Shown here: piece by piece, positions 5,188-35,240 of the stretch
How the letters are laid out: each line of letters begins with the position of its first letter
How positions within the stretch are numbered: position 1 is the stretch's first letter
DNA from: Neoaquamicrobium microcysteis
Lineage (GTDB): Bacteria > Pseudomonadota > Alphaproteobacteria > Rhizobiales > Rhizobiaceae
Length of the DNA: 64,000 nt
Assembly: GCF_008180155.1 (NCBI RefSeq)
Contig: NZ_VSZS01000067.1
Span: forward strand, 186,001-250,000
Reading direction: 5' to 3'
The notes under the pieces: model-generated
The model's database searches: none
Seen by the model: the letters and a program-made list of their open reading frames with translations, nothing else
Told to the model about the DNA's origin: nothing
Program-made: the position numbers and the translations under genes

Positions 5188-5213
5188 ACCCTAGGGAGCC
5201 AGTCTTGCGCGGA
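5188..5213 (-). promoter_or_regulatory. Flagellar promoter element before flgB
   Basis: On the minus strand this reads CGCAAG, nine bases, then CTAG; the CTA ends 28 bases before the flgB start. The same spacing occurs before fliF, flhA, flgE, motA and the DUF1217 gene. A partial second CGCAAG lies immediately upstream (5215-5220). The functional role is inference. Confidence 0.6.
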
Positions 5214-5225
5214 CCTTGCGCGGGC

Positions 5226-6311
5226 TTACCGCTCCAGTTCGACGACCCTGTCGAGCGTGGTGACCAGCACCCAGTGCCCGTCGCGCTGCTCGATGGATGC
5301 GACGGTGCTGGCGTCCGGCAGGCGCGAGCCGCGCTGCACCACCCACAGGCCGTCGCCGTCCTGGATCATGGCGCGGCCGTTGGCGACGTGCACCAGCCGG
5401 AAACCGATCAGGTCGGAAGGAAAGGGCTGCTCCGAGGCCGGCACCGCGCGCATCTGTTCTTCTTCCGCCGGAACCGTGGCGGTCGGGAAGAAGTCGAGCT
5501 GCATCTTCGGCACTTCGCCGCTCGAGATCGGCTTCATCGCCAGCGCAGGCTGGAAGACGACCTGCGAAGGCGCGGTCATCGATCCGCGTCCCTCGAACAC
5601 GAACTCCCTCACGCCGAACTTCTCCTGGTTGAAGAAGATGTACCAGGGAAACAGCGCGCAGGTCAGGCCCAGCACCGCACCCAACCCGCCCACGACGAAG
5701 TCGCTTCTGTCACGCTTCTTCTTCTGCGCCGGGCGGGGCGGAATGGCGGGAGCCACCTTCGGCTTCGCCGCCCCTTCCCGGGGCTTGGCCGGCACGGCAG
5801 GCGCCGTCAGTTCCGCAAGCTGCACCGGCGCGGCTTTCGCCGGCGCCAGAGGCGCCTTCAACTCGGCAAGCGCCAAGGGCGCCTTCAGCTCGGCGAGCGC
5901 CACGGGTTTCTTGGCTTCGGCCAACACCTTCGGCGCGACAACCGCTGGCGGCGTCTTCGCCTCGGCTGCCACCGCCACCGACACCTTGCGCTTGGCCTTC
6001 GGCTTCTTCGGCTTCGGCTCCACCTTCGGCGCCTTCACCTCTTCGAACGGGTCGGCAACCTTGGTCCGGCGCAGGCCCAGCCTCTCCAGCAACCCTTTGC
6101 GCTTGACGGGAAGAGATGCGTTGTATGCCTCGCGCTCCGCCTTGTCGCGCAGGTGGTGCAGCGTGCGGATCGTCACTTCCGGCGTCAGCGTCTCGGTGCG
6201 GTTCTTCACCGCCCCGCCGTTGAGGACGATGGCGTCGGCCGGCGCCGGCTCGTCGCCTGCAAGGCTCATCCCTTTTGCACGGCCAAAGCCGAACCTATTC
6301 GACAGGTTCAT
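5226..6311 (-). CDS. Unrecognised single-pass membrane protein of the flagellar operon
   Basis: A 361-residue protein of unknown function. Residues 1-90 are hydrophilic and charged. About 90-205 is a low-complexity Ala/Lys/Pro stretch with a tandem LAELKAPLA repeat. One membrane segment follows at about 211-233, then a C-terminal domain of about 130 residues that should be periplasmic if the positive-inside rule holds. A GGAGAAG site 8 bases before the ATG supports the start, which overlaps the fliI end by 17 bases. Its place between fliI and flgB suggests a flagellar role; an uncharacterised ORF occupies the same slot in other rhizobia. Confidence 0.85.
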   Translation of the reverse strand: MNLSNRFGFGRAKGMSLAGDEPAPADAIVLNGGAVKNRTETLTPEVTIRTLHHLRDKAEREAYNASLPVKRKGLLERLGLRRTKVADPFEEVKAPKVEPKPKKPKAKRKVSVAVAAEAKTPPAVVAPKVLAEAKKPVALAELKAPLALAELKAPLAPAKAAPVQLAELTAPAVPAKPREGAAKPKVAPAIPPRPAQKKKRDRSDFVVGGLGAVLGLTCALFPWYIFFNQEKFGVREFVFEGRGSMTAPSQVVFQPALAMKPISSGEVPKMQLDFFPTATVPAEEEQMRAVPASEQPFPSDLIGFRLVHVANGRAMIQDGDGLWVVQRGSRLPDASTVASIEQRDGHWVLVTTLDRVVELER

Positions 6312-7707
6312 CTGCCGGCTTCTCCCTGCTTCTCAGATGGCGCGCCAGATCGGCGAACGGGTCCGGCGACGGACGGTCCTGCGGAGACTGCGACAGCGCC
6401 TCGTATATGACCGGCACCTGCCGCACGGCCAGGTCGAGTTCGGCATCCGCTCCCGGCTGGTACGCACCCAGCAGGCGGATGTCGCGCGTATCCTCGAACC
6501 GCGCGATCATGCTGCGCAGCCTCGTCACCAGCGCGCGCTGTTCCTTCGTCCACGCCTTCGGCGCAAGGCGCGAGATCGACGCCAGCGGATCGACGGGCGG
6601 ATAGCGCCCCTGCTCCGCGATGGAACGGTCGAGCACGACGTGCCCGTCCAGGATGCCGCGGATGGAATCGGCTACCGGGTCGTTGTGGTCGTCGCCGTCC
6701 ACCAGCACCGACAGGATCGCGGTGATCGAGCCCGCCCCGTCGACGCCCGGCCCGGCCCGCTCCAGCAGCTTGGGCAGGTCGGTGAATACCGATGCGGGAT
6801 AGCCCCGCGCGACCGGCGGCTCGCCGACGCCGATGGCGACTTCGCGCAGCGCATGGGCGAAACGGGTAATCGAATCCAGCACCAGCAGCACCCGCTGCCC
6901 CTGCTCGCGGAAATGCTCCGCCACGCGCATCGCCATTTCGGGCGCGCGCTTGCGCATCATGGCGCTTTCGTCGCTGGTCGCCACCACGGCCACAGTCTTG
7001 GCGAGGCTTTCCGCCCCGATCGTGTCTTCGAGAAACTCGCGCACCTCGCGCCCGCGCTCGCCCACCAGCGCAACCACCACGGTGTCGAACGCCTCCGCGC
7101 TGGCCAGCATCGCCAGCAGCGTGGACTTGCCGACGCCAGAGCCCGCAAAGATGCCAAGGCGCTGGCCGAAGCAGATCGGCGTGAAGATGTCGATCACGCG
7201 CACGCCGGTCATGAAGCCGGTGGCCACGCGCTGACGCGACATCGCCAGCGGTGCGGCGGCGGTTCCCTCCACCTTGCCCGCAACCAGCGCGCCCTTTCCG
7301 TCCACCGGGCGGCCCAGCGCGTCGATGGCGCGGCCGCGCCACGAGGCATGCGGCGCTGCGCCCCGCGCGGTCCGGATCACGACCGCATCGCCGATGCCGG
7401 CGTCCGGGTTGCGCTCGTAAGGTGCGATGAGCACGTCTTCGGGTCCGATGCGCACGATCTCGCCCGAGCGCGCGCCCGACGACGACCGGTGCTCGACGAC
7501 ATCGCCCAGCCGCGCCGTGGACGAGATTCCCCGTACGCGATAGTGGCTCGGCGAAACCTCGTCGATGCGTCCACCGTTGCGCAGCAGCATGCGGTCGTTG
7601 GCAAACAGCGAGTGCGCGCGTTCCAGCGCCAGCAGCGGCGTGTCGCGCTGCGGCGTCGGCAGATGGGCTGCCTCCGACTCCGGCGTCGGTTTTGCCACGG
7701 CGGTCAT
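6295..7707 (-). CDS. fliI: Flagellar export ATPase FliI
   Basis: FliI, 470 residues, is the ATPase of the flagellar type III export apparatus, paralogous to the F1 beta subunit. The Walker A loop GSGVGKST is at about residues 189-196, and VLLVLDSITRFAHALRE is the Walker B/T3S ATPase signature region. The N-terminal beta-barrel and C-terminal helices are present and the length is normal. It follows flgF by 6 bases. Its partners FliH-like and FliJ-like are encoded at 23827 and 38155. Confidence 0.97.
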   Translation of the reverse strand: MTAVAKPTPESEAAHLPTPQRDTPLLALERAHSLFANDRMLLRNGGRIDEVSPSHYRVRGISSTARLGDVVEHRSSSGARSGEIVRIGPEDVLIAPYERNPDAGIGDAVVIRTARGAAPHASWRGRAIDALGRPVDGKGALVAGKVEGTAAAPLAMSRQRVATGFMTGVRVIDIFTPICFGQRLGIFAGSGVGKSTLLAMLASAEAFDTVVVALVGERGREVREFLEDTIGAESLAKTVAVVATSDESAMMRKRAPEMAMRVAEHFREQGQRVLLVLDSITRFAHALREVAIGVGEPPVARGYPASVFTDLPKLLERAGPGVDGAGSITAILSVLVDGDDHNDPVADSIRGILDGHVVLDRSIAEQGRYPPVDPLASISRLAPKAWTKEQRALVTRLRSMIARFEDTRDIRLLGAYQPGADAELDLAVRQVPVIYEALSQSPQDRPSPDPFADLARHLRSREKPADEPVE

Positions 7708-7713
7708 CGCACG

Positions 7714-8436
7714 TTACCGCGGCCCGAGAGTGCTGATCGCCTGATCGAGCGTGGATTCGCTGTCGCGGATCAGCCCCGATACCTGCTCGAACGCGCGCTG
7801 CACCTGGATCAGCCGTGTGATCTCCAGCACCGGATTGACGTTCGATTCTTCGACGAAGCCCTGCTTCACGCCCACGTCGATCCGGTCGACGACCGGCTCT
7901 GGCGGCCCCCATGGCACGATGCCGGAATTGGCGTAGCGGGTGAAGTTCAGGCCCGGCTGGAACTCGTAGAGCCCCAGCACGCCGATCTGCACGCCGTTCT
8001 GGCGCAGCGAACCGTCCGCGCCCGCCTCGGGCGGCCCGCCCTGCGGATCGAGCTGGATGGGCGCACCGCCCGCGTCGAGAACACGGTAGCCTTCAAGCGT
8101 GACCAGTTCGCCCGTATCGAGCATGGTGAAGCGGCCGTCGCGCGTCATCACCGGCCCTACCGGCGTTTCGATGGCAAACCACGCGTCGCCCTGAATGCTG
8201 AAATCGAGCGGGTTGCCCGTCTCGCGCAGCGAGCCGACCTTCTGCGACAGGTATGTGTCGCCTGCCGAGACGAATGACACGGATTCCGTGCCGAGGCCGC
8301 TGACGATGTCCTCGAACTTCACCCCCGTCGCGCGGAAGCCGACGGTGCCGGCATTCGCGACGTTGTCGGCGATGGTGGTCAGGCGCTTGTCGAGCGCGAT
8401 CTGCGAGGAAAGGGCTACGTAGATTCCAGACTGCAA
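7714..8436 (-). CDS. flgF: Proximal rod protein FlgF
   Basis: FlgF, 240 residues, is a rod protein placed between the proximal and distal rod. It shows the rod N-terminal motif (IADNVANAGTVGFRATGVKF) and the C-terminal ESNVNPVLEITRLIQVQRAF. It is shorter than FlgG, as expected. It lies 9 bases after the DUF1217 gene and just before fliI. Confidence 0.95.
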   Translation of the reverse strand: MQSGIYVALSSQIALDKRLTTIADNVANAGTVGFRATGVKFEDIVSGLGTESVSFVSAGDTYLSQKVGSLRETGNPLDFSIQGDAWFAIETPVGPVMTRDGRFTMLDTGELVTLEGYRVLDAGGAPIQLDPQGGPPEAGADGSLRQNGVQIGVLGLYEFQPGLNFTRYANSGIVPWGPPEPVVDRIDVGVKQGFVEESNVNPVLEITRLIQVQRAFEQVSGLIRDSESTLDQAISTLGPR

Positions 8437-8445
8437 GGGGCGTTC

Positions 8446-9567
8446 CTATCTCTGCATCTTGGCGATCGCCATCATCGTGTCCATCGAGATGCCGAATTCC
8501 ATCGGCTGGAACAGGCTGACGAGCATCGATTCCGGCGAGGTCGTGGGATTGTTCATCTCCCACATGGTGGTGAAGCGCTGCATCAGCTTGCCGAGCTTCT
8601 CGGGATCCTGAAAATCCTCGAGGTTGATCTTGGACTCGATCAGCGCGGCCTGCTTGTCGATGTCGAGCTGTGCGACGGCGTCCGGCAGGCCCAGCAGCGT
8701 GCGCACGACCGTGCCGAGCGCCTTGTCGCCGAGGATCTGGTAGGCGTTGGTGATCTCGCCGGCCTTGCGCGAGAAATAGAGCGCGAGCCGCACGCCCTCG
8801 TTCTGGGCGCCGGCATCTTCTTCCAGCGCCTGGCGCAGATATTTGTCCACAGCCGGCCGCTGCGAGAGGTTGTAGGTGGTCGCGGCCTCGCCCAGCCCCG
8901 CGAAATCGAATGTCTTTGCGAACGCCGCCCACTTTTCGTTTTCGTCGACGTTGGCGGGACTTTTCGGATCGTCGATACCGCCCTCGAGCATCTTGCGGAT
9001 AAGCTTCGGGTCGTCGATCGCGTCGTCGAGGCCGATGGCGTTCAGCGCGTAGGTCAGCAGCCGCTCATTGTCCTTGTGCAGGAAATCGTCGATCGATTTC
9101 ACATTGCCGATGTTCTGCGCGTAATAGGCGCTTTCCTGGATGTGAAACTGCGACGGCGCTCCGTTCGGAGGCGTGTTGACCTTGAGATACAGGTCGATGA
9201 CCGGATGTTCAGCCGCCGCATAGGTGGTGGCGAACTCGCCATAGGCGGCGAAGTTGAAGCTCTTGACGAACTCTGCGTAGCGCTTGTCGATCAGCTTGTT
9301 GGCGAAGCTGTCCGGATCGGTGACGCCCTCTTTGAGCGCCTTGACCATGAACGCCTTGGCGTAGGTCATGTCTTCGAGGCCGTGGGCCTTCATCGCATAG
9401 TTGAACAGGCGCGGGTTGTTGACGAACTCGTCGATCGTCTTAACCTTGGTGATGTTGGCGAGGTAATATTCGGTGTCGCGTTGCACGACCGGCTGCTTCT
9501 CGACACGGTCGAGAGACTTCCCCAGATCGCGGGTTATCAGGTTGTAACTCATATACGTATTGATCAC
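8446..9567 (-). CDS. DUF1217 family flagellar protein
   Basis: A 373-residue DUF1217 protein, a family found next to flgF in rhizobia. It contains at least three copies of a helical unit of about 100 residues, each with an I..VKSIDDFL-like start and a later A..FDFA.GE..TTY-like stretch. I chose the GTG at 9567 (INTYMSYNLITRDLGKSLDR) because a GGAGG site lies six bases upstream and the family begins with a similar STYLSYD motif; longer starts have no support. The precise function is not known to me. It heads the leftward operon with flgF and fliI. Confidence 0.88.
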   Translation of the reverse strand: MINTYMSYNLITRDLGKSLDRVEKQPVVQRDTEYYLANITKVKTIDEFVNNPRLFNYAMKAHGLEDMTYAKAFMVKALKEGVTDPDSFANKLIDKRYAEFVKSFNFAAYGEFATTYAAAEHPVIDLYLKVNTPPNGAPSQFHIQESAYYAQNIGNVKSIDDFLHKDNERLLTYALNAIGLDDAIDDPKLIRKMLEGGIDDPKSPANVDENEKWAAFAKTFDFAGLGEAATTYNLSQRPAVDKYLRQALEEDAGAQNEGVRLALYFSRKAGEITNAYQILGDKALGTVVRTLLGLPDAVAQLDIDKQAALIESKINLEDFQDPEKLGKLMQRFTTMWEMNNPTTSPESMLVSLFQPMEFGISMDTMMAIAKMQR

Positions 9568-9597
9568 GCACGCCTCCACTTCACCGGATGGACCTGT

Positions 9598-9624
9598 CGT
9601 CAATACCGAAAAATGCTTGCGCGA
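9598..9624 (-). promoter_or_regulatory. Flagellar promoter element before the DUF1217 gene
   Basis: Minus strand TCGCGCAAG, nine bases, then GTATTG, ending 36 bases before the GTG start at 9567. It is inverted relative to the motA copy at 9672-9692; the outer CTTGCGCGA/TCGCGCAAG arms are a perfect 9-bp inverted repeat within one intergenic region. Confidence 0.55.
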
Positions 9625-9671
9625 AACTGAACGGCCTTGGTTGCATCCTATGCAGCGCCTGCCATTCAGCC

Positions 9672-9695
9672 TCGCGCAAGCCATGCGCGATAGTC
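9672..9695 (+). promoter_or_regulatory. Flagellar promoter element before motA
   Basis: TCGCGCAAG, nine bases, then ATAG, ending 37 bases before the motA GTG at 9730. It differs from the fliF, flhA, flgE and flgB copies at the first base after the spacer (A instead of C). Confidence 0.55.
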
Positions 9696-9729
9696 AGCAG
9701 GATGACAGCGCGCATGTAGAGGTGAACCT

Positions 9730-10605: not shown

Positions 10606-10622
10606 ACGGGCGGGGCGATAGC

Positions 10623-11552: not shown

Positions 11553-11595
11553 GCCGTGCACCGGCTGAAAGCGACATGCCCTCAAGGAGACGACC

Positions 11596-12054: not shown

Positions 12055-12095
12055 GCCAGTATACTGTTTTGGTGCGAATCGGGGACAGTGTCGGA

Positions 12096-13139: not shown

Positions 13140-14231
13140 ATGGCCGAACAAGCGGACAAGGAAAGCAAGACAGAAGAGGCCACGGAAAAGAAGATCCGTG
13201 ATGCCATCGAGAAGGGCCAGCTTCCTTTCGCCAAGGAAGTCCCCGTCGTCGGTTCGTTCCTGGCCATCCTCGTCTTCATGATCTTCATCGCCCAGTCCGG
13301 CGCGGTCGAACTCGGCAGCTTCCTCTCCATGTTTCTGGAGCGCCCCGATTCATGGTCGCTGGCGACCAGCCACGACGCCGTGCTCCTCTACCGCCAGGTC
13401 TTCCTCGAACTCGCCAAGCTGCTGGCCGCGCTGATGGCGCTGCTGATCGGCGCGGGCATCGCCGCCTCCGTCTTCCAGAACGTGCCCCGCATGGTGCTCG
13501 ACCGGGTCCAGCCGAAATTCTCGCGCGTGTCGCCCAAGGAAGGCTGGAAACGGCTCTTCGGCGGCAAGGGCCTGGCCGAGTTCGTCAAGTCGATCGGCAA
13601 GCTGGTGTTCGCCGGCGTCATCCTGGCCTTCGCGATGCGCGATGCGCAGACGCGGCTTCTGTCCGGCATGATTACGCAGCCCGAGGCCTTCGGCGCGGTC
13701 ATCCGCGACATCGCCATCGAAATCGTGGTGTCGATTACGGTCATCATGGTCCTGATCGCGCTGATCGACCTGCTGTGGACCCGCTACCACTGGCGGCAGG
13801 ATCTGCGCATGACCAAGCAGGAGGTCAAGGACGAGATCAAGCAGGCCGAAGGCGACCCGATTATGAAGGCGCGGCTGCGCTCGCTGCAGCGCGACCGTGC
13901 CCGCCGCCGCATGATGGCCGACGTGCCCAAGGCCACGCTGGTCATCGCCAACCCGACCCACTACGCCATCGCGCTGCGCTACGTTCGCGACGAGACGCCG
14001 GCCCCCGTCGTCATCGCCAAGGGGCAGGACCTGGTGGCCTTGAAGATCAGGGAGATCGCCGAGGCGAACGAGGTGCCGGTTTTCGAGGATGTCGCGCTCG
14101 CCCGCTCCATGTACAATCAAGTTTCGGTGGATAGTGTGATTCCGCCTCAGTTCTATCAGGCGGTCGCCGAACTCGTTCGGGTCCTATACACAAACAAGGC
14201 AGCTCCGGCTGCCGGCAGGGTGCCGTCATGA
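13140..14231 (+). CDS. flhB: Flagellar export gate protein FlhB
   Basis: FlhB, 363 residues, is the export-gate subunit that switches substrate class. Four membrane segments lie in the first 215 residues. The cytoplasmic domain carries the autocleavage motif NPTH at residues 271-274. Its end overlaps the next gene by 4 bases (ATGA). Confidence 0.97.
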   Translation: MAEQADKESKTEEATEKKIRDAIEKGQLPFAKEVPVVGSFLAILVFMIFIAQSGAVELGSFLSMFLERPDSWSLATSHDAVLLYRQVFLELAKLLAALMALLIGAGIAASVFQNVPRMVLDRVQPKFSRVSPKEGWKRLFGGKGLAEFVKSIGKLVFAGVILAFAMRDAQTRLLSGMITQPEAFGAVIRDIAIEIVVSITVIMVLIALIDLLWTRYHWRQDLRMTKQEVKDEIKQAEGDPIMKARLRSLQRDRARRRMMADVPKATLVIANPTHYAIALRYVRDETPAPVVIAKGQDLVALKIREIAEANEVPVFEDVALARSMYNQVSVDSVIPPQFYQAVAELVRVLYTNKAAPAAGRVPS

Positions 14232-15175: not shown

Positions 15176-15943
15176 TCAGTCGATAAGCCCGCTCCGCAAC
15201 GCCTTCGCCACCGCGTGGATGCGGTTGACGGCGTTGAGCTTCTGCGTCGAGTTCGTGAGATACTGGTTGGCGGTGTGGACCGAAAGGCCGAGCGTGGCAG
15301 CGATGTCTTCGCTCGTCAGGCCGTTGGCGGTCAGCCGCAGGCATTCCACTTCGCGCTTCGAGACGGGCGGCGTCTTGGCGCAATCCTGCACCCGCTGGCG
15401 CGCCACGTCGGCGAAGATCGCAAAGCAGCGCGCATGGGCGTCGCACAGTTCGCCTTCGTCCACCGCCATCGCGTCGCCTGCAAACACGACGACGCCGCTG
15501 CGCCCCCGCTCTATCGAAACCGGAAAGGCGATACCTGCTCTGTCGACCGTGCCGGGGTTGGCGATCTCGCTTGCCCAGCATCGCGCCGCCGCGCCCAGAA
15601 AGGGCGGCTGTTCCGCGTCGCGCCACCACGCGGGCGCTGCCGCGCCGAACATGGCGCGGGCGAAGCCCTCGGCCGCTTTCGAGGAAAGCGACCGCGAAAG
15701 CAGCGACAGGCCGGGAAACTCGCTGTCGAAGACCGGCGCCAGCCGGCGGCTTTCGCCCTGCGGCGCCACGAAAAGCAGGCTGAAATGGTCCGCGCCCAGC
15801 GCGTCCGCAAGGCTGCGGCACAGGCGCGCGGCGTCGCCGAGCGACACCGCCCTTTCCTGGCACTGCGCCTCCGTCCCGTCCGATAAGCCGGGGCCTGCCC
15901 CGTCGGGCAACTGCCCTGCCGGTGGCACGAAAACAGGCTGCAT
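15176..15943 (-). CDS. visR: LuxR-type motility master regulator VisR
   Basis: A 255-residue regulator with an N-terminal ligand-type domain and a C-terminal LuxR helix-turn-helix (VSKREVECLRLTANGLTSED, then IAATLGLSVHTANQYL). In S. meliloti, VisN and VisR act together as the top-level activator of flagellar genes, acting through rem. The second gene of the pair is VisR by order. Its ATG shares one base with the visN stop (TGATG). Assignment to VisR rather than VisN rests on order. Confidence 0.85.
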   Translation of the reverse strand: MQPVFVPPAGQLPDGAGPGLSDGTEAQCQERAVSLGDAARLCRSLADALGADHFSLLFVAPQGESRRLAPVFDSEFPGLSLLSRSLSSKAAEGFARAMFGAAAPAWWRDAEQPPFLGAAARCWASEIANPGTVDRAGIAFPVSIERGRSGVVVFAGDAMAVDEGELCDAHARCFAIFADVARQRVQDCAKTPPVSKREVECLRLTANGLTSEDIAATLGLSVHTANQYLTNSTQKLNAVNRIHAVAKALRSGLID

Positions 15944-16641
15944 CAGATGATCCCGCTTCTGATCGCGGTGGCGATCGCCATGGCGCGGTTGTTTGCGCCG
16001 AACTTCTGGATGGCGTGCGCCACGTAGCTGTTGACGGTGTTGGACGACACGCCGAGGATCAGCGCCACCTCGTCGGTGGTCTTGCCTTCAGACACCCACA
16101 GCAGGCACTCGCGCTCGCGTTCGGAAAGCGGGTCGCGCGACGAGCGGTCGCCGCATGCGGCAAACAACTGGCTCAGCGCATAGCGCATCGCCATGTGGGC
16201 ACGCAGCAGCCCCGTGCGGTCGATGCGCTGGGGCGCGGAGGCCGACAGCAGCGCGAAGATTGCCGCGCCGTCCACACACAGCTTCAGGCAGTAGAGTTCG
16301 GCATGGTCGTGCTCGCGCAGCGCGCGCTTTTCCTCGGCCGTCAGGAAGCACGTCGCAGCCGGCGTCATTGCGCGGTGGACCGTACCCGCCCCCGTCGCGT
16401 AGTCGCTTTCGATGATCTTGGCGATGCCTTCCGAGCCCAGATCTTCCAATGCGTCGAAGACCCAGTTGGACGTGAGAATGCGCACCGATTTCGGGCCGCG
16501 CTCTACCGAGGGCTCGACCAGCATGTATCGCTCGGCCCCCATCTCCGCGCAGATGCGGCGCATGAAGCGCGCAAGCCCGGCCCGGGACGTCACCGGTCCG
16601 GGAGCCTCCTGGGCGAGAGAAACTGAAGCGAGAAGCGTCAT
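15943..16641 (-). CDS. visN: LuxR-type motility master regulator VisN
   Basis: A 232-residue protein from the ATG at 16641. The N-terminal part resembles an autoinducer-binding fold and the C-terminal LuxR helix-turn-helix reads LSERERECLLWVSEGKTTDE, then VALILGVSSNTVNSYV. It pairs with VisR downstream. The frame stays open upstream to 16722, but the additional residues look unlike the family; the ribosome-binding site at the chosen ATG is weak, so the start is uncertain. Its position beside flhB and before the polysaccharide island fits the rhizobial locus. Confidence 0.85.
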   Translation of the reverse strand: MTLLASVSLAQEAPGPVTSRAGLARFMRRICAEMGAERYMLVEPSVERGPKSVRILTSNWVFDALEDLGSEGIAKIIESDYATGAGTVHRAMTPAATCFLTAEEKRALREHDHAELYCLKLCVDGAAIFALLSASAPQRIDRTGLLRAHMAMRYALSQLFAACGDRSSRDPLSERERECLLWVSEGKTTDEVALILGVSSNTVNSYVAHAIQKFGANNRAMAIATAIRSGII

Positions 16642-16965
16642 CGTTCGTGGTCCGATATTGCGGTTGGGCCGCATGGCGGCCGAAAAACTCGAGCACACGA
16701 ATCCGCCCACCGCCCCGCGCAAGCACGAGGCTGTCCAGCGATACGCAAATTACGGACAGAACACTTCCGGCAACGAGCACCAGCTCGCCGCAGAACAGCG
16801 GAACAACACTCTGAATCTGGAAAGACGCCGCAGATATAACGACACATCACGAAAGATGTGCCTCCTGCAACAAACCCTGACCGCCTCAGATCCGCCTACA
16901 TTTAAAGTGATACGTATCCGATTGATTCGCGTCAAGATTCGGCGGAGGCGCCGGACGCAAAAAGA
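16642..16965. other. 324-base upstream region of visN
   Basis: No convincing gene. The interval is less GC-rich than its surroundings, especially 16740-16950, as expected of a promoter region. A perfect 10-bp palindrome, GATACGTATC, lies at 16909-16918. It presumably holds the visNR promoter, which I cannot place precisely. Confidence 0.5.
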
Positions 16966-17769
16966 TCACGCGGCGCGCGATTGTGGCAATTTTGACTCAC
17001 CTGCCAGCGCCATCGCATCGCGCACAGGCAGCACCTCGCACCCCGCCGCCAGCGCCGCTTCGACAGCCCTTTCCATCAGCGCCGGCGAGCAGCCATGCTC
17101 GCTCGGGCCGTCCTGCACATCGTGCGTGTAGAAGACCAGCCACGCCTTGCTGCGCACTGTCTCGGCGATGATCTCCGCAAGCCCCTCGGCGTCGAGCCGG
17201 CAATCGTAGAGCTGCACCGCGCGAAGCTGCGCGCGATCCACCCGGCCCACGTTCAGCCCGTGCCGTACGCCCCGGCAGCTGGTGAACCGGTCCGCCGTCC
17301 AGGCTTTCTGGAAAAAGCCGACCGAGCCGTATGGAAAAGCCATGCTTTCCAGCTTCACGCGGGGATCGGCCGCTGTCAGCCATTGTCTGTTGCGGTCCAG
17401 CTCGTCCGTAAGCCTCGCTCTGTCGAGCGTCTGGACGACTGGGTGAGAGAAGGTGTGGCAGCCGACTTCGTGTCCCTGATCCAGCAGCAGCGACACGTCC
17501 GACGGCGAAAAGAAGCGCCACGGCCCGAACGAGGCATCGGCCAGTCCGCCCGCCAGATAGAATGTGCCGCCGCACCCGTGCTCGGCCAGGATGCGCGCCC
17601 CGTTCGTCACGGCGCTGTCGGGCACGTCGTCGAAGGTGAAGCTGACGACCGGCCGTTCCAGCGCCAGCGGCACGTTCCTCTGCCTCAGCCACAGAGCTGC
17701 GGCACGGTCCGCCCTGCTGGCGATGTCGTGGCTGACGCCTTCGGCGAGCGTTACGGGTCTGGCTTGCAT
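16966..17769 (-). CDS. Polysaccharide deacetylase family protein
   Basis: A 267-residue NodB-fold deacetylase. Motif 1 is SFTFDD with the catalytic and metal-binding aspartates, and motif 2 is HTFSHP with the metal-binding histidine pair (H-x3-H). No signal peptide is evident, so it may be cytoplasmic. GGAGG eight bases before ATG 17769 supports this start over a longer one. It follows the flippase gene by 28 bases, so it probably modifies an acetylated sugar polymer made by the adjacent genes. The substrate is unknown. Confidence 0.85.
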   Translation of the reverse strand: MQARPVTLAEGVSHDIASRADRAAALWLRQRNVPLALERPVVSFTFDDVPDSAVTNGARILAEHGCGGTFYLAGGLADASFGPWRFFSPSDVSLLLDQGHEVGCHTFSHPVVQTLDRARLTDELDRNRQWLTAADPRVKLESMAFPYGSVGFFQKAWTADRFTSCRGVRHGLNVGRVDRAQLRAVQLYDCRLDAEGLAEIIAETVRSKAWLVFYTHDVQDGPSEHGCSPALMERAVEAALAAGCEVLPVRDAMALAGESKLPQSRAA

Positions 17770-17797
17770 CGAACTCTCTCCTCCGAACTCCAGACTG

Positions 17798-19219
17798 TCA
17801 GCGCGCAAAGGCGAACACCTTGCGGGCCACGAACCGCACCGCGAACAGGTCGTAGTACCACAGCACCACCCCCGCGCTCGTCGCCACCAGCGTCATGTCG
17901 GCCGCGATGCGCGCGATCTCGTTGTCGATGGTGCGGGCAAAGACCATGTGGATGACCCAGACGCCGAGCCCCACCGTCGCGATCCTCAGCATGTCGCCCA
18001 TCGGCAGCGGCAGCCGGTACGACGCAGACCGCCACAGCGCCACGACCGCGCAGCTCGCGCACTGCCCGGCGATCAGCGCGATCGCCGCGCCGTGCTCGCG
18101 ATGCTCCGGCACCAGCAGGAAGACGAGCCCCACCGTCACTAGCAGTTGCAGCGCCGATGCGTAGAACTGCAGCATGCCCGACGGCAGGAAATAGACGATC
18201 TGGCCGAAATAGTACGTCCTGAACACGAGGATCGAGCTCGCCACCAGCAGCAGCGGCAGAAGCTCAATGGCTGCGGCGTGAAACTGCGGGCCGAAGAAGA
18301 TCGCGACGATCGTGTCCTTCAACGCCAGCACCAGCACCGAGCCGAACACGGTGATGACGGCGATCGACCGCATAGCTTCGCTGAGCGCTCGTTGCGCGTC
18401 GCCGTGCCTGCCTTCGGAGGCCGCACGCTTGGCAACCGTGATGAGCGACAGCGCAACCACCTCACCGAAAACGAAGAAGCCCTGCTTGAGAAAATCGGCC
18501 ATCGCGCCGTACGGGCCGATGCTGGCCGAGCCGTGGAAATGGCCGAGCGCGAGCCGGTCGATGTTCTGCGCCAGCGCCCATGTGCCGCCTGCCAGCATCA
18601 GCGGCCAGCCATAGCGCAGCAACTCACGCACGACGTCGCGGCTGAACCCGCGCAGCAGGTCGGCCCGGTAGACGATGAACATCGGCACCGCCGAAACCAG
18701 ATAGGCGGAGGCCACGGCGATTGGCAGGGCAACCGCGCTGCCGGCAAACGCGATCAGCACGGCGCTGCCCAGCGTCACCGTCAGTGCCGCGCGCAGCAGC
18801 GTCGCCGTCGCCGACATCTTCGGGTTCATGCGCGTGCGCGGCACCGTCACCGCGAACTCGTGCGCCGCCAGCCCCGCCGTCATCAGGAACAGCGACAGCG
18901 CGAACGACGCGGACAGCGCGCCCTGCCACACCAGCAGCGCCATCGGCGTGGCGACCAGCACCAGCGCCACCGCCTTCATCGCCAGCGCGCTCGACATGTA
19001 CTGCCTGCGCCCCTGCTCCTGGTAGCGGGCGAAGAACGCCTCGTCGATCCAGAACGTCACGGTGCCGTGCAGGATGAACGACCATGCCAGCACCAGCAGG
19101 TAGGTGCCGTAGGTCTCCACATCCCCGAGACGCGTGAAGACCGCCACGGCAAGCAGGTTCAGGCTTGCCGAGGCGACCCTCGATCCCAGAAATACCAGCA
19201 GACCGTTCTGGTGGTGCAT
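17798..19219 (-). CDS. Oligosaccharide flippase, Wzx/MATE-like membrane protein
   Basis: A 473-residue protein made almost entirely of hydrophobic segments (about 12-14), typical of polysaccharide flippases of the MVF/Wzx superfamily that move lipid-linked oligosaccharides across the inner membrane. I chose the ATG at 19219, preceded by AAGGCGG; the longer frame adds about 50 hydrophilic residues without support. It is in an operon with the deacetylase and divergent from the glycosyltransferase. Confidence 0.85.
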   Translation of the reverse strand: MHHQNGLLVFLGSRVASASLNLLAVAVFTRLGDVETYGTYLLVLAWSFILHGTVTFWIDEAFFARYQEQGRRQYMSSALAMKAVALVLVATPMALLVWQGALSASFALSLFLMTAGLAAHEFAVTVPRTRMNPKMSATATLLRAALTVTLGSAVLIAFAGSAVALPIAVASAYLVSAVPMFIVYRADLLRGFSRDVVRELLRYGWPLMLAGGTWALAQNIDRLALGHFHGSASIGPYGAMADFLKQGFFVFGEVVALSLITVAKRAASEGRHGDAQRALSEAMRSIAVITVFGSVLVLALKDTIVAIFFGPQFHAAAIELLPLLLVASSILVFRTYYFGQIVYFLPSGMLQFYASALQLLVTVGLVFLLVPEHREHGAAIALIAGQCASCAVVALWRSASYRLPLPMGDMLRIATVGLGVWVIHMVFARTIDNEIARIAADMTLVATSAGVVLWYYDLFAVRFVARKVFAFAR

Positions 19220-19420
19220 CAACCCGCCTTGTTCACCTGCGTGCGTCCCGAAAAATCCGTTCGCCTCTGTCAAAGCAAGGCGCGTGCCGGTTCCGCCATT
19301 CGCCTGCCTTGCCGCCTGGTAAGCCGTTTCCGCGTACTGGCCCGTCCCTTGCAACCATTCGGACAGTGCATGCGGCAAACCGGCATCCGTGCCGTTTCGA
19401 AACAGGATGGAGTGCAGAAC

Positions 19421-22035: not shown

Positions 22036-22128
22036 ACCGCGCGGCCTGTCGGGTAGACCAAGACGCTCCAACCAACGTCCGTTCCTCGCCGCTTTTCTCG
22101 GCTCGCCTCGCGGGGCGGCCCGATTTCA

Positions 22129-22155
22129 TTTTCGCACAAGCTTCGCTCCCTATTC
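22129..22155 (+). promoter_or_regulatory. Flagellar promoter element before fliF
   Basis: TTTTCGCACAAG, nine bases, then CTATTCT. The CTA ends 34 bases before the fliF GTG at 22187. It is nearly identical to the flhA copy at 35213-35240. Confidence 0.65.
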
Positions 22156-22186
22156 TGCAAAGGCCGATATTCCGGAGCGTGAAGCC

Positions 22187-26914: not shown

Positions 26915-28311
26915 TGCCCAACGTCGCAATGGGGAATGCCGTCTCCGGCACGCATGCGAAGTCCGGCGAACGTGGCGGCAAGAACGCCGATGCAGCCGAC
27001 CAGCGTTTCGCCGAAGCGCTCGACAAGGGCGCTGACAAGCGCAAGCCGGCAGACGCGCGCGAAGGTGAAAAACCGGCCGGCGCGACATGGCGGACGGCCC
27101 CCTACGCCTCGCCCATGGCCATGCCGCCACGGGCAGAAGTCGACGCCCTGGACGACGGGACGACCGACGCCCTTCCGGCCGATGCCGAGGGTTTGCCGGC
27201 AGTCGCTCCCATGCCTGACGACGAGCCTTCATCCGAGGTTGGATCGGACGAGCCGAAAAAAGTTACTGGGGATGATCCGATAGCCTTGATCGACGCGCTC
27301 ACCGCGCCGCCGTCAAAGCCTTGGCCAGCAAGCGTTTCAGGCCCTGCAACGGCCTCGAATGAGGCCCCGGAAGCGGCCGCGAAGCAGGCCGTCCCGTCTG
27401 ATGTTATCGAAAACAGGCCCGCAAATCCTGTTACGTCGACCTTAACCCCTTCAAATCCTTCGGTTTTCGTCGCCGCGTCAGCCACCACGGCCGCGCCTGC
27501 GCGGCCGGCCGGCGAACAGCCGTCTGCCCGTCGCGCCGACCCGAAATCGCCCGCCCAGCCGCAGTTCTCAACCGCCCGAAACGCCCCTCAGCCCGATGCC
27601 GAGGCCGCCCCGAAGCCGTCCTCCACGCAGGCCGATCTCATGCAGCTCGTGCGTCCCGGAGAGGCTGTTTCCGCCCGTTCCGACGCCCGCTCGCGCTCCT
27701 TCCAGGCCATGCCCGACGCGCTTTCCTCACGCGTCAACGTCGTCTCCTTCAACGCCACGCCCGCCTCCGCACCACCGGTCGCGATGCCGCTTCTGGGCGC
27801 CACGGCAGCCGGCCTCGTCTCCGCGATCGAGGGCGACGGCGCCTGGCGCGCCATGGCTCGGGAAGCCGCTGTGACCACCCAGCAGAACGGCGCGCCGCCC
27901 CACGCCGCGTCCAACTCCCTGCGCATCCAGCTCAATCCGGCCGAGCTCGGCATGGTCACGGCGCGTCTGGTGACCAGCGGAACACAACTTACCGTTGAGT
28001 TGCAGGTCGAGTCGGCCGAGGCCCGCCAGAAGCTGACCACCGACAGCGATTCCATCGTCAAGGCGCTGCGCGCGATCGGCTACGACATCGAGAAGGTCAC
28101 CATCCAGCAGGGTCCGCAGAACAACCTGTCCAACCAGCAGCAGGGTCAGGGCATGGCCGCCGGCCGCGACCAGCTGCATTCGGACCAGCAGCAGGGTGAC
28201 CGCAATGCGCGCGGCCGCGGCAACGGCGCAGCCGGAAACGGGAACGAGGGAACGGGCCATGGCATGGGCGAAACTGCTGCGGAACGTTCTGGCGGCGGCA
28301 TCTATATCTAG
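26911..28311 (+). CDS. fliK: Hook-length control protein FliK (MotD)
   Basis: A 466-residue protein with a low-complexity, Ala/Pro-rich N-terminal region of about 320 residues that would act as the molecular ruler. It ends in a C-terminal Flg_hook domain (LRIQLNPAELGMVTARLV, then LRAIGYDIEKVTIQ). In S. meliloti the gene here was first called motD and later recognised as fliK. A Gln/Gly/Asn-rich tail follows. The transglycosylase gene starts inside its 3' end in another frame. Confidence 0.92.
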   Translation: MMPNVAMGNAVSGTHAKSGERGGKNADAADQRFAEALDKGADKRKPADAREGEKPAGATWRTAPYASPMAMPPRAEVDALDDGTTDALPADAEGLPAVAPMPDDEPSSEVGSDEPKKVTGDDPIALIDALTAPPSKPWPASVSGPATASNEAPEAAAKQAVPSDVIENRPANPVTSTLTPSNPSVFVAASATTAAPARPAGEQPSARRADPKSPAQPQFSTARNAPQPDAEAAPKPSSTQADLMQLVRPGEAVSARSDARSRSFQAMPDALSSRVNVVSFNATPASAPPVAMPLLGATAAGLVSAIEGDGAWRAMAREAAVTTQQNGAPPHAASNSLRIQLNPAELGMVTARLVTSGTQLTVELQVESAEARQKLTTDSDSIVKALRAIGYDIEKVTIQQGPQNNLSNQQQGQGMAAGRDQLHSDQQQGDRNARGRGNGAAGNGNEGTGHGMGETAAERSGGGIYI

Positions 28312-28831: not shown

Positions 28832-28978
28832 TTGCCAACGCCACTGAAAAGAGTGCCCGCTGAGTCGGCTCCGGAGACTCCCAAAAAACCATCTATAAGA
28901 AATGATGGTTGTCGATGATTCGCCCCAACGGTTAACCCTTTATCCACAACTTGGATTAACTGATTCGGGGGGCGGCCG

Positions 28979-29647
28979 ATGATAGTGATAGTAGACGAGC
29001 GTGAGCTCGTAAAAGACGGATACCACTCGCTTTTCGGCCGTGAAGGCGTGGCGAGTGCAGGCTTTGGCTCCAGCGACTTCGGCGAGTGGGTTTCCACAGC
29101 CGCTGACGACGACCTCAAGGCGGTTCGCGCATTCCTTATCGGCGAATGCTCCAGCGAGTTCGTATCCCCGCGCAAGATCAGGGACCGCACCTCGGCCCCG
29201 GTGATCGCGCTGTCGGACCAGCATTCGCTGGAGAACACGCTGCGGCTGTTCGAATCCGGCGTCGATGACGTCATTCGCAAGCCGGTGCACATCCGCGAAA
29301 TCCTGGCCCGCATCTCGGCGATCAGCCGCCGCGTGCAGGAAGACAAGCCCTACTCCGAGTTCGGTGCGATGCGCATCTTCATGGATGGTCGCGATCTGGA
29401 GATCGACGGCGAGCCGCTGCCGCTGCCGCGCCGCGAGCGTCGCATCCTGGAGTTTCTTGCCAGCAACGCCGGCCGCCGCGTCACGAAGACCCAGGTTTTC
29501 AACGCGATCTACGGCATCTTCGACGAAGAGGTCGAAGAGAACGTGGTGGAAAGCCATATCAGCAAGCTGCGCAAGAAGCTCCGCGAGAAGCTGGGCTACG
29601 ACCCGATCGATTCCAAGCGCTTCCTCGGCTACCGGCTCGTCACGTGA
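28979..29647 (+). CDS. rem: Motility regulator Rem, OmpR-like
   Basis: A 222-residue OmpR-type protein. The N-terminal receiver-like domain ([15 protein letters not shown]) retains the late VDDVIRKP lysine, but the usual phospho-acceptor strand (LVxxDxxLP) is replaced by a sequence without an evident aspartate. The C-terminal winged helix ends with [19 protein letters not shown]. In S. meliloti, Rem is the growth-phase activator of flagellar genes placed under VisNR. The position between the transglycosylase gene and flgE matches that species. Confidence 0.93.
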
Positions 29648-29723
29648 GGCTCCCCTGTTCGCCCGCACCATCCGATGCGGGCGAAATCTGCGTTCTGGCC
29701 CACCGGCACCGCGTCGCAAGCCA

Positions 29724-29750
29724 GCCTCACGCAAGACAGGGCCGCTAACC
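29724..29750 (+). promoter_or_regulatory. Flagellar promoter element before flgE
   Basis: CTCACGCAAG, nine bases, then CTAACC. The CTA ends 40 bases before the flgE ATG. The spacing is the same as at the fliF, flhA and flgB copies. Confidence 0.6.
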
Positions 29751-29787
29751 TCGTGCCCAGCGCCTGAATCTCGAGGAGAATTTTCAC

Positions 29788-31077: not shown

Positions 31078-31108
31078 GTGAAGGCGCTGGGTATGAAGTA
31101 GGGAAACG

Positions 31109-32557
31109 ATGTCACTTTCGACTGCATTAAACATCGCGCAGAATTCGCTTCTGAACACCCAGCGTCAGACCTCGGTCGTTTCGCGCAACATCGCCAATGT
31201 CTACAACAACGACTACGCGCGGCGCACGGCCGTGCTGTCGAGCCTGGCGCCCGGCGCAAAGCTTATCGAGATAAGACGCGCGACCGATGCCGCGCTGTTC
31301 CAGCAGAACCTGTCTGCGCTGTCCGGCTGGACGGCGCAGAGTTCGGTTATGAGCGGCCTCGAGCGGCTGAGCATATCCGTCAACGGCGTCGAGAACGCCA
31401 CCTCGCCCGCCAAGATGATAAGCCAGTTGCAGGAAGCCCTGCAGCTCTATTCCTCGACCCCGTCCAACCGGACGCTGGGTGAAAATGCCGTGGAGATGGC
31501 GCGACAGGTCCTGGGCACCCTCAACCAGGGCACCAACGCGGTCCAGGCGTTCCGCACCGACATGGACGGCCAGATCGGCACGGCGGTCGGCGAGCTCAAC
31601 CAGCTTCTGTCAGACTTCAAGACGGTCAACGACGCCGTCATCAAGGGCACCAATTCCGGCCGCGATATTCTCGACGATCTCGACCGCCGCGACGCGCTCC
31701 TCAAGAAGATCTCGGAATACGTGCCGATCTCCACCATCGGCCGCGCCAACAACGACCTGATGATCGTGACGGCGGACGGCACCACGCTGTTCGAGACCAT
31801 TCCCCGTCACGTCGGTTTCGAACCGACTGCTGCATACGGCGCAGCCACCGTCGGCAACCGGATCACCGTGGACGGCGTGCCGATCTTCAAGGCGACCGGC
31901 GCCAACACCAGCGCGTCGGGTTCGCTCGCGGCCATGCTGCAGATGCGCGATAGCTACGCTACCGGAATGCAGGCACAGCTCGACGAGGTCGCGCGCGGCC
32001 TGATCAAGGCGTTTTCGGAAACCGATCCGAACCCGCCGAACGACACGCTGCCGGGCCTCTTCACGTGGCCGGGCGCGCCGGCCATGCCGGCCGACGGCAC
32101 GCTGATAAACGGGCTTGCGGGTCTCATCACGCTCAATGCGCTCGTCGATCCGCAGCAGGGGGGCAACCCGGAACTGCTGCGCGACGGCATCAATTTCGAC
32201 GTCAACCCGAACAACCATGGCAGCTTCAACGGGCTGCTCCTAGGCTTCGTCAACGCGCTCGATGCGCCGGTCGATTTCGTGACCGTCGATGGGACGACCG
32301 TTAGCAGCGGGCTTCTGAACTACGCGACGGCAAGCATCAGCTGGCTCGAGGATGCACGCAAGACGGCCAATGGCGCTGCCGAGACCAAGGGTGCGTTGAT
32401 GATCCGCACCGCCGAGGCCCTTTCAAACCTGACGAGCGTCAACGAAGACGAGGAAATCGCCCTGATGCTCGAACTTGAGCGCTCCTACGCCGCGTCGGCC
32501 AAGATGATGCAGATCATCGACGAGATGCTCAAGACTCTGCTGAATGTGGTGAGATAG
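31109..32557 (+). CDS. flgK: Hook-filament junction protein FlgK
   Basis: FlgK (HAP1), 482 residues. The N terminus (TALNIAQNSLLNTQRQTSVV, then SRNIANVYNNDY) and the C-terminal helix (VNEDEEIALMLELERSYAAS) are those of the family. It joins the hook to the first junction ring. Confidence 0.96.
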   Translation: MSLSTALNIAQNSLLNTQRQTSVVSRNIANVYNNDYARRTAVLSSLAPGAKLIEIRRATDAALFQQNLSALSGWTAQSSVMSGLERLSISVNGVENATSPAKMISQLQEALQLYSSTPSNRTLGENAVEMARQVLGTLNQGTNAVQAFRTDMDGQIGTAVGELNQLLSDFKTVNDAVIKGTNSGRDILDDLDRRDALLKKISEYVPISTIGRANNDLMIVTADGTTLFETIPRHVGFEPTAAYGAATVGNRITVDGVPIFKATGANTSASGSLAAMLQMRDSYATGMQAQLDEVARGLIKAFSETDPNPPNDTLPGLFTWPGAPAMPADGTLINGLAGLITLNALVDPQQGGNPELLRDGINFDVNPNNHGSFNGLLLGFVNALDAPVDFVTVDGTTVSSGLLNYATASISWLEDARKTANGAAETKGALMIRTAEALSNLTSVNEDEEIALMLELERSYAASAKMMQIIDEMLKTLLNVVR

Positions 32558-32561
32558 ACCG

Positions 32562-33605
32562 ATGAAAGTTTCCTTCGTTTCATCCCAGGCCATTTCGCAG
32601 GCCATACGCTATCAGATGTCGCGCATGCAGGCTGACCTGGTGGTGGCACAGAAGGAAGTTGCGACCCTGCGTGTCGCCGATGTCGGTCTGGCGCTGGGCG
32701 CACGCACCGGCGTGTCGGTTTCGCTCTACCGCGAGATCGACCGGCTCAAGGGCATTACCGATACCAACCAGCTTGCCGCGTCGCGGCTGGATTCGACCCA
32801 GATCGGCATGCGCCAGCTGCGCGAGTCGGCCAGCGACCTGATCGCCACGCTGACCACCGCGGTGTCGGGCGCGTCCGACCCGGCGATCGTCAAGCAGCAG
32901 GCCGACCAGGTGCTTGGCCAGATGACCTCGGTGCTCAACGCCAACCTCAATGGCGAGCATCTCTTTGCCGGTATCAACACCGACGTTCAGCCGTTCAACG
33001 ACTTCCTCGACCCGACCTCGCCAAACCGCGTCGCGTTCGACAACGCCTTTACCACGCATTTCGGCTTCCCTGCCGGTGACCCGGCAGCGGCCGCGATCAC
33101 CGAAGCGGAGATGAACGACTTCCTCGACAACGTCGCGGACCCGCTCTTTTTCGGCGCCGGCTGGGCCGACTGGTCCAACGCCACCGACCAGCAGATCACC
33201 TCGCGCATCACGCTGACGGAAACGGCGCAGACCTCGGTTTCGGCCAACATCCCCGGTTTCCGCAAGCTTGCGATGGCTGCCGCCATCGTCTCGGCGGCGT
33301 TCGACGATTCGATGAGCCAGGCTGGCCGCTCGGCCATCCTGGCGCGCGGGCTCGACCTGCTCGGCTCGGCCGTCAACGACCTCGCCAACCAGGAAGGCAG
33401 CACCGGCATCACCCAGCAGCGGATCGAGAAGGCCAACGAGCGGATGTCGATGCAGATCGACATCTTCACCACCAGCCTGCTCGATCTGGAAGGCGTGGAC
33501 GGATACGAGGCCTCGACCAAGGTAACCGGGCTTCTCGCCCAGATCGAGATTTCATACTCGCTTACCGCAAGGATGCAGCAGCTCAGTCTTCTCCGATACC
33601 TGTAG
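32562..33605 (+). CDS. flgL: Hook-filament junction protein FlgL
   Basis: FlgL (HAP3), 347 residues, connects FlgK to the filament. It has a flagellin-like N-terminal helix (QAIRYQMSRMQADLVVAQKE) and C-terminal helix (VTGLLAQIEISYSLTARMQQ). It starts 4 bases after flgK. Confidence 0.94.
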   Translation: MKVSFVSSQAISQAIRYQMSRMQADLVVAQKEVATLRVADVGLALGARTGVSVSLYREIDRLKGITDTNQLAASRLDSTQIGMRQLRESASDLIATLTTAVSGASDPAIVKQQADQVLGQMTSVLNANLNGEHLFAGINTDVQPFNDFLDPTSPNRVAFDNAFTTHFGFPAGDPAAAAITEAEMNDFLDNVADPLFFGAGWADWSNATDQQITSRITLTETAQTSVSANIPGFRKLAMAAAIVSAAFDDSMSQAGRSAILARGLDLLGSAVNDLANQEGSTGITQQRIEKANERMSMQIDIFTTSLLDLEGVDGYEASTKVTGLLAQIEISYSLTARMQQLSLLRYL

Positions 33606-33651
33606 TAACGCCGGCCCAGACGCAGACCCAGACAGACAAAACGGAAACCGC

Positions 33652-33999
33652 ATGTATCAATTCTCCTACGCCGAAGTGCAGACCGACTCCGTGGCGGATG
33701 CAAAGGACCGCGAAAGGCAGCTGCTGTCGCGCTCCATCGATCTTCTGATCGCCGCACGGGAGAAGGGTACGCGGTCCAACGAGGCGATCCGCGCGATCTA
33801 CTTCCTCAACCGCGTCTGGACGACCTTCGTCGAGGATCTCGGCAGCGAGGACAACGAGCTGCCGCAGGAACTGCGCGCCAACCTCATCTCCATCGGCCTG
33901 TGGCTGCTGCGCGAGGCCGAGGAGGTCCGCCAGGGACATTCCGACAATTTCGAAGGTCTCATCGAGGTGTCGCAGATCATCCGCGACGGCATTCAATGA
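33652..33999 (+). CDS. flaF: Flagellin biosynthesis regulator FlaF
   Basis: FlaF, 115 residues, an alphaproteobacterial helical protein required for flagellin synthesis and antagonistic to FlbT (shown in Caulobacter). The conserved core ([19 protein letters not shown]) is present. Its stop overlaps flbT by 4 bases. Confidence 0.93.
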
Positions 34000-34430
34000 A
34001 GAACACGCTGAAAATCACGCTGAAGGCGAACGAAAAGATCTACGTCAACGGCGCGGTCATCAAGACCGACCGCAAGGTCTCCCTGGAGTTCCTCAACGAC
34101 GTCCAGTTCCTGCTGGAGGGACACGTGCTCCAGCCGGAGGACGCCAAGACGCCGCTGCGTCAGCTCTATTTCATCATCCAGATCATCCTGATGAACCCGG
34201 ACGGCGCGACCGACGCGCGCGACATGTTGCGCAAGTCGCTGCCGCTGATGCTGTCGTGCTTCTCCAACGACCAGATCCTTGCGTCGCTAAAGCATATCGA
34301 CCAGCTCGTCAGCGAAGGCCATGTCTACGAAGCGCTCAAGGCGCTGCGTGCCCTCTATCCTCTGGAAGCCAGCATCCTCGCCGCCGAAGGCGACATGCCG
34401 GCGCCCATCACACTCACCGCAGCGGAGTAG
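33996..34430 (+). CDS. flbT: Flagellin mRNA regulator FlbT
   Basis: FlbT, 144 residues. The N-terminal beta-rich half ([20 protein letters not shown]) and helical second half fit the family. In Caulobacter it binds the fljK 5' leader and represses flagellin translation. The overlap with flaF (ATGA) couples the two opposing regulators. I use ATG 33996; longer frames lie inside flaF. Confidence 0.93.
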
Positions 34431-34435
34431 CACAC

Positions 34436-34894
34436 ATGAACGTTTCCGCGATCACCGGCAGCCTGAATACGCAGAACGCGACCGGCACGCCGCAATCGGT
34501 CGACTACCAGGCATTCCTGCGCCTGCTGGTAGCCCAGATGCAGAACCAGGACCCGACCGCCCCGATGGATTCGACCGACTACGTCGCGCAGCTGGCGACG
34601 TTCTCGCAGGTCGAGCAGTCGGTGCAGATCAACAACAAGCTGACCGAGATGCTGCAAGCGTCCTCGATGGCGCAGGCGACCGGGCTTATCGGCAGGCATG
34701 TCGAAAGCATGGACGGCGAGATCAGTGGCGTGGTCCGCCAGGTCGAGATATATTCGGACGGCATCGTCGCCGTGCTGGAGGATGGCACCAAGCTGGCGAT
34801 CACGCCCGGCGTGATCATTCGCGATGCCGACTTCACGCCGCCGCCCGAACAGACGCCCGGTGACGACGAGACCGGAGGCGAAGAGACCGCATGA
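34436..34894 (+). CDS. flgD: Hook cap protein FlgD
   Basis: FlgD, 152 residues, caps the growing hook. The N-terminal block (DYQAFLRLLVAQMQNQDPTA, then PMDSTDYVAQLATFSQVEQ) is diagnostic. The protein is short, with only a reduced C-terminal domain, as in other rhizobia. The stop overlaps the fliQ ATG by four bases. Confidence 0.95.
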   Translation: MNVSAITGSLNTQNATGTPQSVDYQAFLRLLVAQMQNQDPTAPMDSTDYVAQLATFSQVEQSVQINNKLTEMLQASSMAQATGLIGRHVESMDGEISGVVRQVEIYSDGIVAVLEDGTKLAITPGVIIRDADFTPPPEQTPGDDETGGEETA

Positions 34895-35157
34895 ACGAAG
34901 CCGACGCGCTCGACATCGCACAATACGCGGTCTGGACCGTCCTGACCGCGTCAGGCCCGGCCGTGGCCGTGGCGATGTTCGTCGGCGTCGGCATCGCCTT
35001 CATCCAGGCGCTCACGCAGGTTCAGGAAATCACCCTCACATTCGTGCCCAAGATCGTCTCGATCCTGCTGGCCGTGGCGATCTCGGCTCCCTTCGTCGGC
35101 GCGCAGATCGCAAGCTTCACCAACGTGATGTTCCAGCGCATCGAAACCGGCTTCTGA
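34891..35157 (+). CDS. fliQ: Flagellar export gate protein FliQ
   Basis: FliQ, 88 residues, has two membrane helices (about 15-39 and 49-74) and the motif ALTQVQEITLTFVPKI. It is part of the FliPQR-FlhB export gate. fliR is nearby at 37392 and fliP lies outside the window, probably after fliL. Confidence 0.96.
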   Translation: MNEADALDIAQYAVWTVLTASGPAVAVAMFVGVGIAFIQALTQVQEITLTFVPKIVSILLAVAISAPFVGAQIASFTNVMFQRIETGF

Positions 35158-35212
35158 GCGGCGCTCCACCTTCCTGCTCCGCGGCAAAAGACCGTCGCTG
35201 CCGCCAACCACA

Positions 35213-35240
35213 TTTTCGCGCAAGCTTGACCTCCTAGTCT
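35213..35240 (+). promoter_or_regulatory. Flagellar promoter element before flhA
   Basis: ATTTTCGCGCAAG, nine bases, then CTAGTCTCG. The CTA ends 56 bases before the flhA ATG. It aligns closely with the fliF copy over about 24 positions. Confidence 0.65.

Follow-up and report, generated by a model that had tools for sequence, protein, structure and literature searches.

A 64-kb window of the Neoaquamicrobium microcysteis genome (C46:186001-250000, on contig NZ_VSZS01000067.1; whole genome 4,837,867 bases) contains a flagellar gene cluster in which a short element, CRCAAG-N9-nTA, recurs before several transcription units. Comparison across the order indicates that two 11-bp direct repeats, nCAGCTTCGCG-CAAGCTTnG, meet at CRCAAG and that a -10-like TAnnnT comes after them. 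The repeat is probably the binding site of Rem, the product of a rem-like gene in the same window (Table 1). This reading is based on the repeat itself, its spacing, its orientation, its conservation, its concentration at rem-linked loci and the type of protein that Rem is.

The first-pass annotation had placed the element at six flagellar promoters, those of flgB, a DUF1217 gene, motA, fliF, flgE and flhA, and a pattern scan of the window recovered all six. Written as CRCAAG-N10-TA, the pattern has seven matches in the window, against a mean of 1.25 and a maximum of 4 in 100 dinucleotide shuffles, none of which reached seven. The remaining match, at 1245-1262(+), lies antisense inside the open reading frame (ORF) 1008-1547(-). 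The annotated distances from TA to the start codon were confirmed for flgE (40), fliF (34), flhA (56), motA (37) and the DUF1217 gene (36), while that of flgB is 29 bases and not 28. The DUF1217 gene precedes flgF, and its promoter diverges from the motA promoter.

Conservation was examined in the best 80 of 563 loci obtained with a Rem query, mostly from Mesorhizobium and also from Aquamicrobium, Aminobacter, Tianweitania and others. The 200 bases upstream of each gene were considered, only at loci where tblastn found the gene. CRCAAG-N10-TA was present upstream of fliF in 72/72, flgE in 76/77 and flhA in 31/31 loci, in line with the conserved spacing that the first-pass annotation had expected of orthologous promoters. 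In the same relatives it preceded control genes rarely or never (rem 3/80, motB 0/72, flgK 0/76, flaF 1/79, fliR 0/23, flgJ 0/13). When CRCAAG-to-TA spacings of 4 to 17 were tested upstream of fliF, flgE and flhA, only 10 was common, each of the others being found at no more than 5 loci per gene. Among relatives, identity is 0.91-0.99 in the core columns versus 0.28-0.53 in the flanks, which rules out that the conservation is a by-product of conserved flanks.

A weight matrix was then built from the relatives' sites lying 20-70 bases before the start codon with 45 bases upstream (fliF 71/72, flgE 72/76, flhA 30/31). In the window, the six promoter sites top its ranking, with scores from 38.0 to 15.8, and rem, visN and flaF are without a site in its list, as the annotation had judged. 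The 'weak version' that the annotation saw before a flgJ-like gene proved to be a seventh conserved site: the matrix match spans 38539-38571(+) with a score of 8.0, and a site with CAAG and the same layout precedes the gene in 13/13 relatives examined (scores 0.1-11.9). Two further window matches above 10, at 53223-53255(+) (13.4) and 27036-27068(-) (10.8), have no assigned promoter.

The repeat was seen most clearly beyond the window. Identity of the sites with themselves peaks at lag 11 (0.48), the next value being 0.35 at lag 10 and other lags giving 0.17-0.35. Moreover, an ungapped alignment of 38 sites from other genera gives nCAGCTTCGCGCAAGCTTnGnnnCCTAGnnTnn, that is AGCTTCG, four bases, AGCTTnG and then TAnnnT. 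Within single window sites, no more than 3 to 5 of the 7 bases agree between the half-sites, so that the repeat is evident only in comparison. The element and spacing described by the first-pass annotation are therefore real, but were parsed differently: CRCAAG comprises the half-site junction and the start of the second half-site, the TTTC or CTC often noted before it is part of the first half-site, and N9 covers what is left of the second half-site and the interval before the -10. Neither the sigma-28 form TAAA-N15-GCCGATAA nor the sigma-54 form GG-N10-GC was visible by eye in the 38-site consensus; no scan for either form was made.

Two direct repeats 10-11 bp apart (consensus AGCTTCG-N4-AGCTTnG), in fixed orientation and at a fixed distance from the -10, are the arrangement of an OmpR/PhoB-type operator. 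Across 142 promoter regions, the box is oriented forward, towards the gene, in 86 and reverse in 7. Sites chosen on the repeat only still yield the -10 bases (T 0.44, A 0.62, T 0.54), together with a C six bases past the last T of the -10 (0.47) that may precede the transcription start. Other families often retain the repeat while TA becomes TC, TT, CA or GA.

In the window's genome, CRCAAG-N10-TA has 77 matches; the short pattern alone is therefore not specific, and CRCAAG as the functional unit is ruled out. Lengthened to CANNYTCRCRCAAG-N10-TANNNT, the pattern is matched exactly at three places, the fliF, flgE and flhA sites of the flagellar cluster. Allowing one mismatch gives three matches, two of which are the motA and DUF1217 sites, and two mismatches give 29, flgB included. 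A genome scan with model R1, in which 150 of 2982 candidates were scored, ranked flhA, fliF and motA first, second and third. Seven further R1 matches in this genome cover model positions 2-24 alone, without the -10; five of them overlap an open frame on the same strand, L221 one on the opposite strand only and L219 none. Separately, a box with a -10 lies outside the flagellar cluster at C46:143533(+) (G000; L149:9532; score 12.7), before a repeat-rich ORF starting MTTISGTNPFS. This site is not clearly conserved, as 3 of 30 genomes match, including its own, and the others do so over 48 and 94 bases.

Across the order, a Rem match with an E value of 1.2e-45 or better was found in 83 of 297 genomes, the best match in the other 214 being 6e-24. 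The comparison drew on 60 rem loci, which came from 58 of the 83 Rem-bearing genomes, and in addition on 31 of 46 Rem-type flhA loci; as controls, 11 of 15 second FlhA loci and loci from 18 of the 51 Rem-less genomes with an FlhA match were used. Upstream counts exclude matches starting after residue 40, short upstream regions and duplicates, and a site scoring at least 10 with the relatives' matrix is called strong. Within 250 bases upstream, strong sites precede rem-linked flgE in 28/44, motA in 19/21, flhA in 19/51, fliF in 10/16 and flgB in 8/11 cases. Other rem-linked genes have none (flgK 0/49, flgL 0/52, fliR 0/51, motC 0/26, motB 0/17) or few (flaF 2/52, rem 1/60, flgF 1/28). No strong site was found at the control genes, either in second systems of Rem-bearing genomes (flhA 0/11, fliF 0/6) or in Rem-less genomes (flhA 0/17, fliF 0/15). 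By length, 1.77 Mb of rem-linked loci hold 166 sites scoring at least 10, while 212 kb of second flagellar systems in Rem-bearing genomes and 351 kb of Rem-less flagellar loci hold none. The promoters accompany a rem gene, as expected of a Rem (class II) regulon.

The genes following the 166 sites are flgE 28, flhA 20, motA 17, flgJ 16, fliF 10, DUF1217 9 and flgB 8, with relatives of two window ORFs (4 and 3), rem (2), flaF (2) and six others once each. A further 29 sites precede unlabelled ORFs and 12 have no ORF. Pfam searches on 10 of these 29 ORFs identified five flagellins, two single-receiver (CheY-like) proteins, the sensor part of one chemoreceptor, one receiver-EAL protein and one protein without a family. 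The box precedes flagellin genes at L110, L111, L114, L170 and L173 (families f11, f34 and f44). The annotation had expected matches at flagellin and chemotaxis genes. Some other families do have them, at genes for flagellin, CheY-like proteins and chemoreceptors, but the four-flagellin cluster of the window's genome has no box (best score 2.3, in L150). A further flagellin-like gene lies on C32, besides that cluster.

The window Rem has a Trans_reg_C domain, and its relatives of solved structure are of OmpR/PhoB type, including RegX3, KdpE and PhoB. Position 55 is Gly in 141/141 sequences, in the column matched by eye to the phospho-acceptor Asp. An OmpR-type DNA-binding domain joined to a receiver without the phospho-acceptor Asp, on this by-eye match, is what is expected of a Rem orthologue. 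Rem is described as an aspartate-less, direct activator of class II genes (PMC9812332). Direct class II activation by Rem is therefore already reported.

A putative Rem target with a weak -10, one of the two possibilities raised by the first-pass annotation, is the best-supported reading. We consider it likely that these are class II promoters on which a Rem dimer would bind head-to-tail to the two 11-bp repeats, lying over the -35 region as placed from the -10 only, and would recruit the housekeeping RNA polymerase to the weak TAnnnT at a fixed distance. Transcription would start about 7 bases past the -10, and the seven window promoters would accordingly have leaders of about 19-46 bases.

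Several observations weigh against this model. Many rem-type genes have no strong site (flhA 32/51, flgE 16/44, fliF 6/16). The repeat part alone, with 238 rem-linked sites, also occurs 10 and 7 times in the second-system and Rem-less controls. The strict pattern CAGYYTCRCRCAAGC, present in 45/83 Rem-bearing genomes (87 matches), is found in 36/214 Rem-less genomes as well (40 matches); the contrast has a Fisher p of 6e-10, which is a guide only because the genomes are related. In the window, 14107-14139(+) scores 15.7 with the relatives' matrix, just 0.1 under the sixth-ranked promoter site; it lies at the end of flhB, before a small ORF at 14228 that has no orthologue row among the relatives fetched. 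Model R1 recovers only 5 of the 7 window promoters, placing flgB 11th and flgE 12th of 13 and leaving the DUF1217 and flgJ-like promoters out of its genome list. Three genomes carry Rem without a Rem-type FlhA, G073 and G017 having no match and G167 one of only 32%; the assembly may be incomplete, flagella may have been lost, or Rem may have another role there. Finally, FtcR of Brucella melitensis, a reported relative of Rem, has a motif from chromatin immunoprecipitation sequencing, TGTGGGCA, that is unlike the repeat (PMC9456535).

This last difference, and the weak Rem matches of several other regulators in the genomes of the order, would fit another OmpR-type regulator that binds the repeat and merely travels with the flagellar system. 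We think this unlikely. In many of the 60 rem loci rem adjoins flagellar genes, Rem is the reported direct activator of class II genes, and the type of FlhA tracks Rem: an FlhA with 58-70% identity to that of the window is present in 46 of 50 Rem-bearing genomes (G116 has a match of 44% and a 33-residue end fragment), whereas 51 of 70 Rem-less genomes have an FlhA match, none above 48%. The FtcR octamer TGTGGGCA was also considered as the element and rejected: among the relatives, the upstream regions of nine gene sets have no forward-strand copy of it, and one of 23 (fliR) has a reverse-strand copy. In the window it is found at 9729(+), over the motA start codon, at 16194(+) and at 3412(-).

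The fixed spacing between CRCAAG and TA could also mean that a specialised sigma factor reads the former as -35 and nTA as -10. We regard this as very unlikely, and the specialised core promoter, the other possibility raised by the first-pass annotation, is disfavoured. The 11-bp tandem repeat is the conserved unit, and it often outlasts TA in other families, which argues for a protein-binding site. CAAG and TA are closer together than the usual -35/-10 pair. According to PMC12826043, Alphaproteobacteria have no known sigma factor dedicated to flagella.

Binding by VisNR, the LuxR-type master regulators, might be suggested by two adjacent LuxR-type genes in the window, 15176-15943(-) and 15943-16722(-), whose names VisR and VisN we infer. 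It is most improbable, the element being a direct repeat, unlike the usual LuxR sites, which are inverted repeats. Among the matches listed, those to the N-terminal half of VisN come from 4 of 59 Rem-bearing genomes, all of the window's family, and the others begin at residue 116 or later, while the box is present in other families too; VisNR was rejected as the binder on this account. Furthermore, visNR is reported to be missing from Azorhizobium caulinodans and Bradyrhizobium diazoefficiens, both of which possess a rem homologue (PMC8429497). General upstream conservation or chance, for which the 77 genome matches of the short pattern might speak, deserves almost no credence, being already contradicted by the counts in relatives, the sites in other families and the core-versus-flank identities; offsets from site to start codon also differ between species.

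Table 1. Candidate promoters and the rem-like gene in the 64-kb window
Feature	Position	Strand	Short pattern	Repeat box	-10-like	Score	Remark
flgB promoter	5188-5217	-	5192-5209	5199-5217	TAGGGT 5188-5193	17.2	
DUF1217 gene promoter	9600-9629	-	9604-9621	9611-9629	TATTGA 9600-9605	15.8	
motA promoter	9667-9696	+	9675-9692	9667-9685	TAGTCA 9691-9696	24.7	
fliF promoter	22127-22156	+	22135-22152	22127-22145	TATTCT 22151-22156	38.0	
rem-like gene	28979-29647	+					name from relatedness and gene order
flgE promoter	29722-29751	+	29730-29747	29722-29740	TAACCT 29746-29751	27.4	
flhA promoter	35211-35240	+	35219-35236	35211-35229	TAGTCT 35235-35240	37.1	
flgJ-like (Rod-binding) gene promoter	38540-38569	+		38540-38558	CATATT 38564-38569		seventh, weaker

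Inside the flagellar cluster, the interval between the LuxR-type pair and fliF also holds genes for a polysaccharide deacetylase and for a polysaccharide biosynthesis protein, at 16966-19378(-).

The putative Rem site can be compared with several known systems. Like the PhoB box, it is built of repeats in head-to-tail order, spaced by one helical turn and situated near the -35; in Sinorhizobium meliloti, PhoB boxes overlapping the -35 are located 22-25 bases upstream of the start (PMC3616915). It differs in its AGCTTCG-type sequence, and its proposed binder has Gly at the (by-eye) phospho-acceptor position. HP1043/HsrA of Helicobacter pylori is likewise an orphan response regulator with two direct repeats 11 bp apart, TTTAAG-N5-TTTAAG (PMC5253667), and is discussed among constitutively active pseudo-receivers (PMC12632262). 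Its sequence and regulon are different, and no orthology with Rem is claimed. The cluster around the window's rem-like gene is of the kind that goes with the VisNR-Rem cascade of S. meliloti and other rhizobia, for which direct class II activation by Rem is reported (PMC9812332). FtcR, LafR of B. diazoefficiens and ActR of Azorhizobium are similar in being OmpR-type proteins with reported flagellar control (for FtcR, PMC9456535); no LafR or ActR motif was seen in the parts of the literature searched. The repeat conflicts with the published FtcR motif, and therefore one of the two needs checking. No Rem-binding sequence like the repeat was found in the available parts of the literature searched, which excluded two primary Rem papers (one of them Rotter et al. 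2006), nor any Rem motif in those of the start-site papers PMC10469942 and PMC3616915. There is a real chance that part of the repeat finding is already in print.

We lean slightly towards a broader view, in which one phosphorylation-independent tandem-repeat code would mark one flagellar system, and not its sister in the same cell, throughout the order. Where flagellin, CheY-like and chemoreceptor genes carry the box, as they do in several families, they may have acquired it, and the usual order of class II before class III would therefore be bypassed. The repeat offers a testable binding code for the Rem branch of rhizobial motility. With it, candidate regulons can be read from sequence across the genomes of the order, and two flagellar systems in one cell are separated by their promoter sequence.

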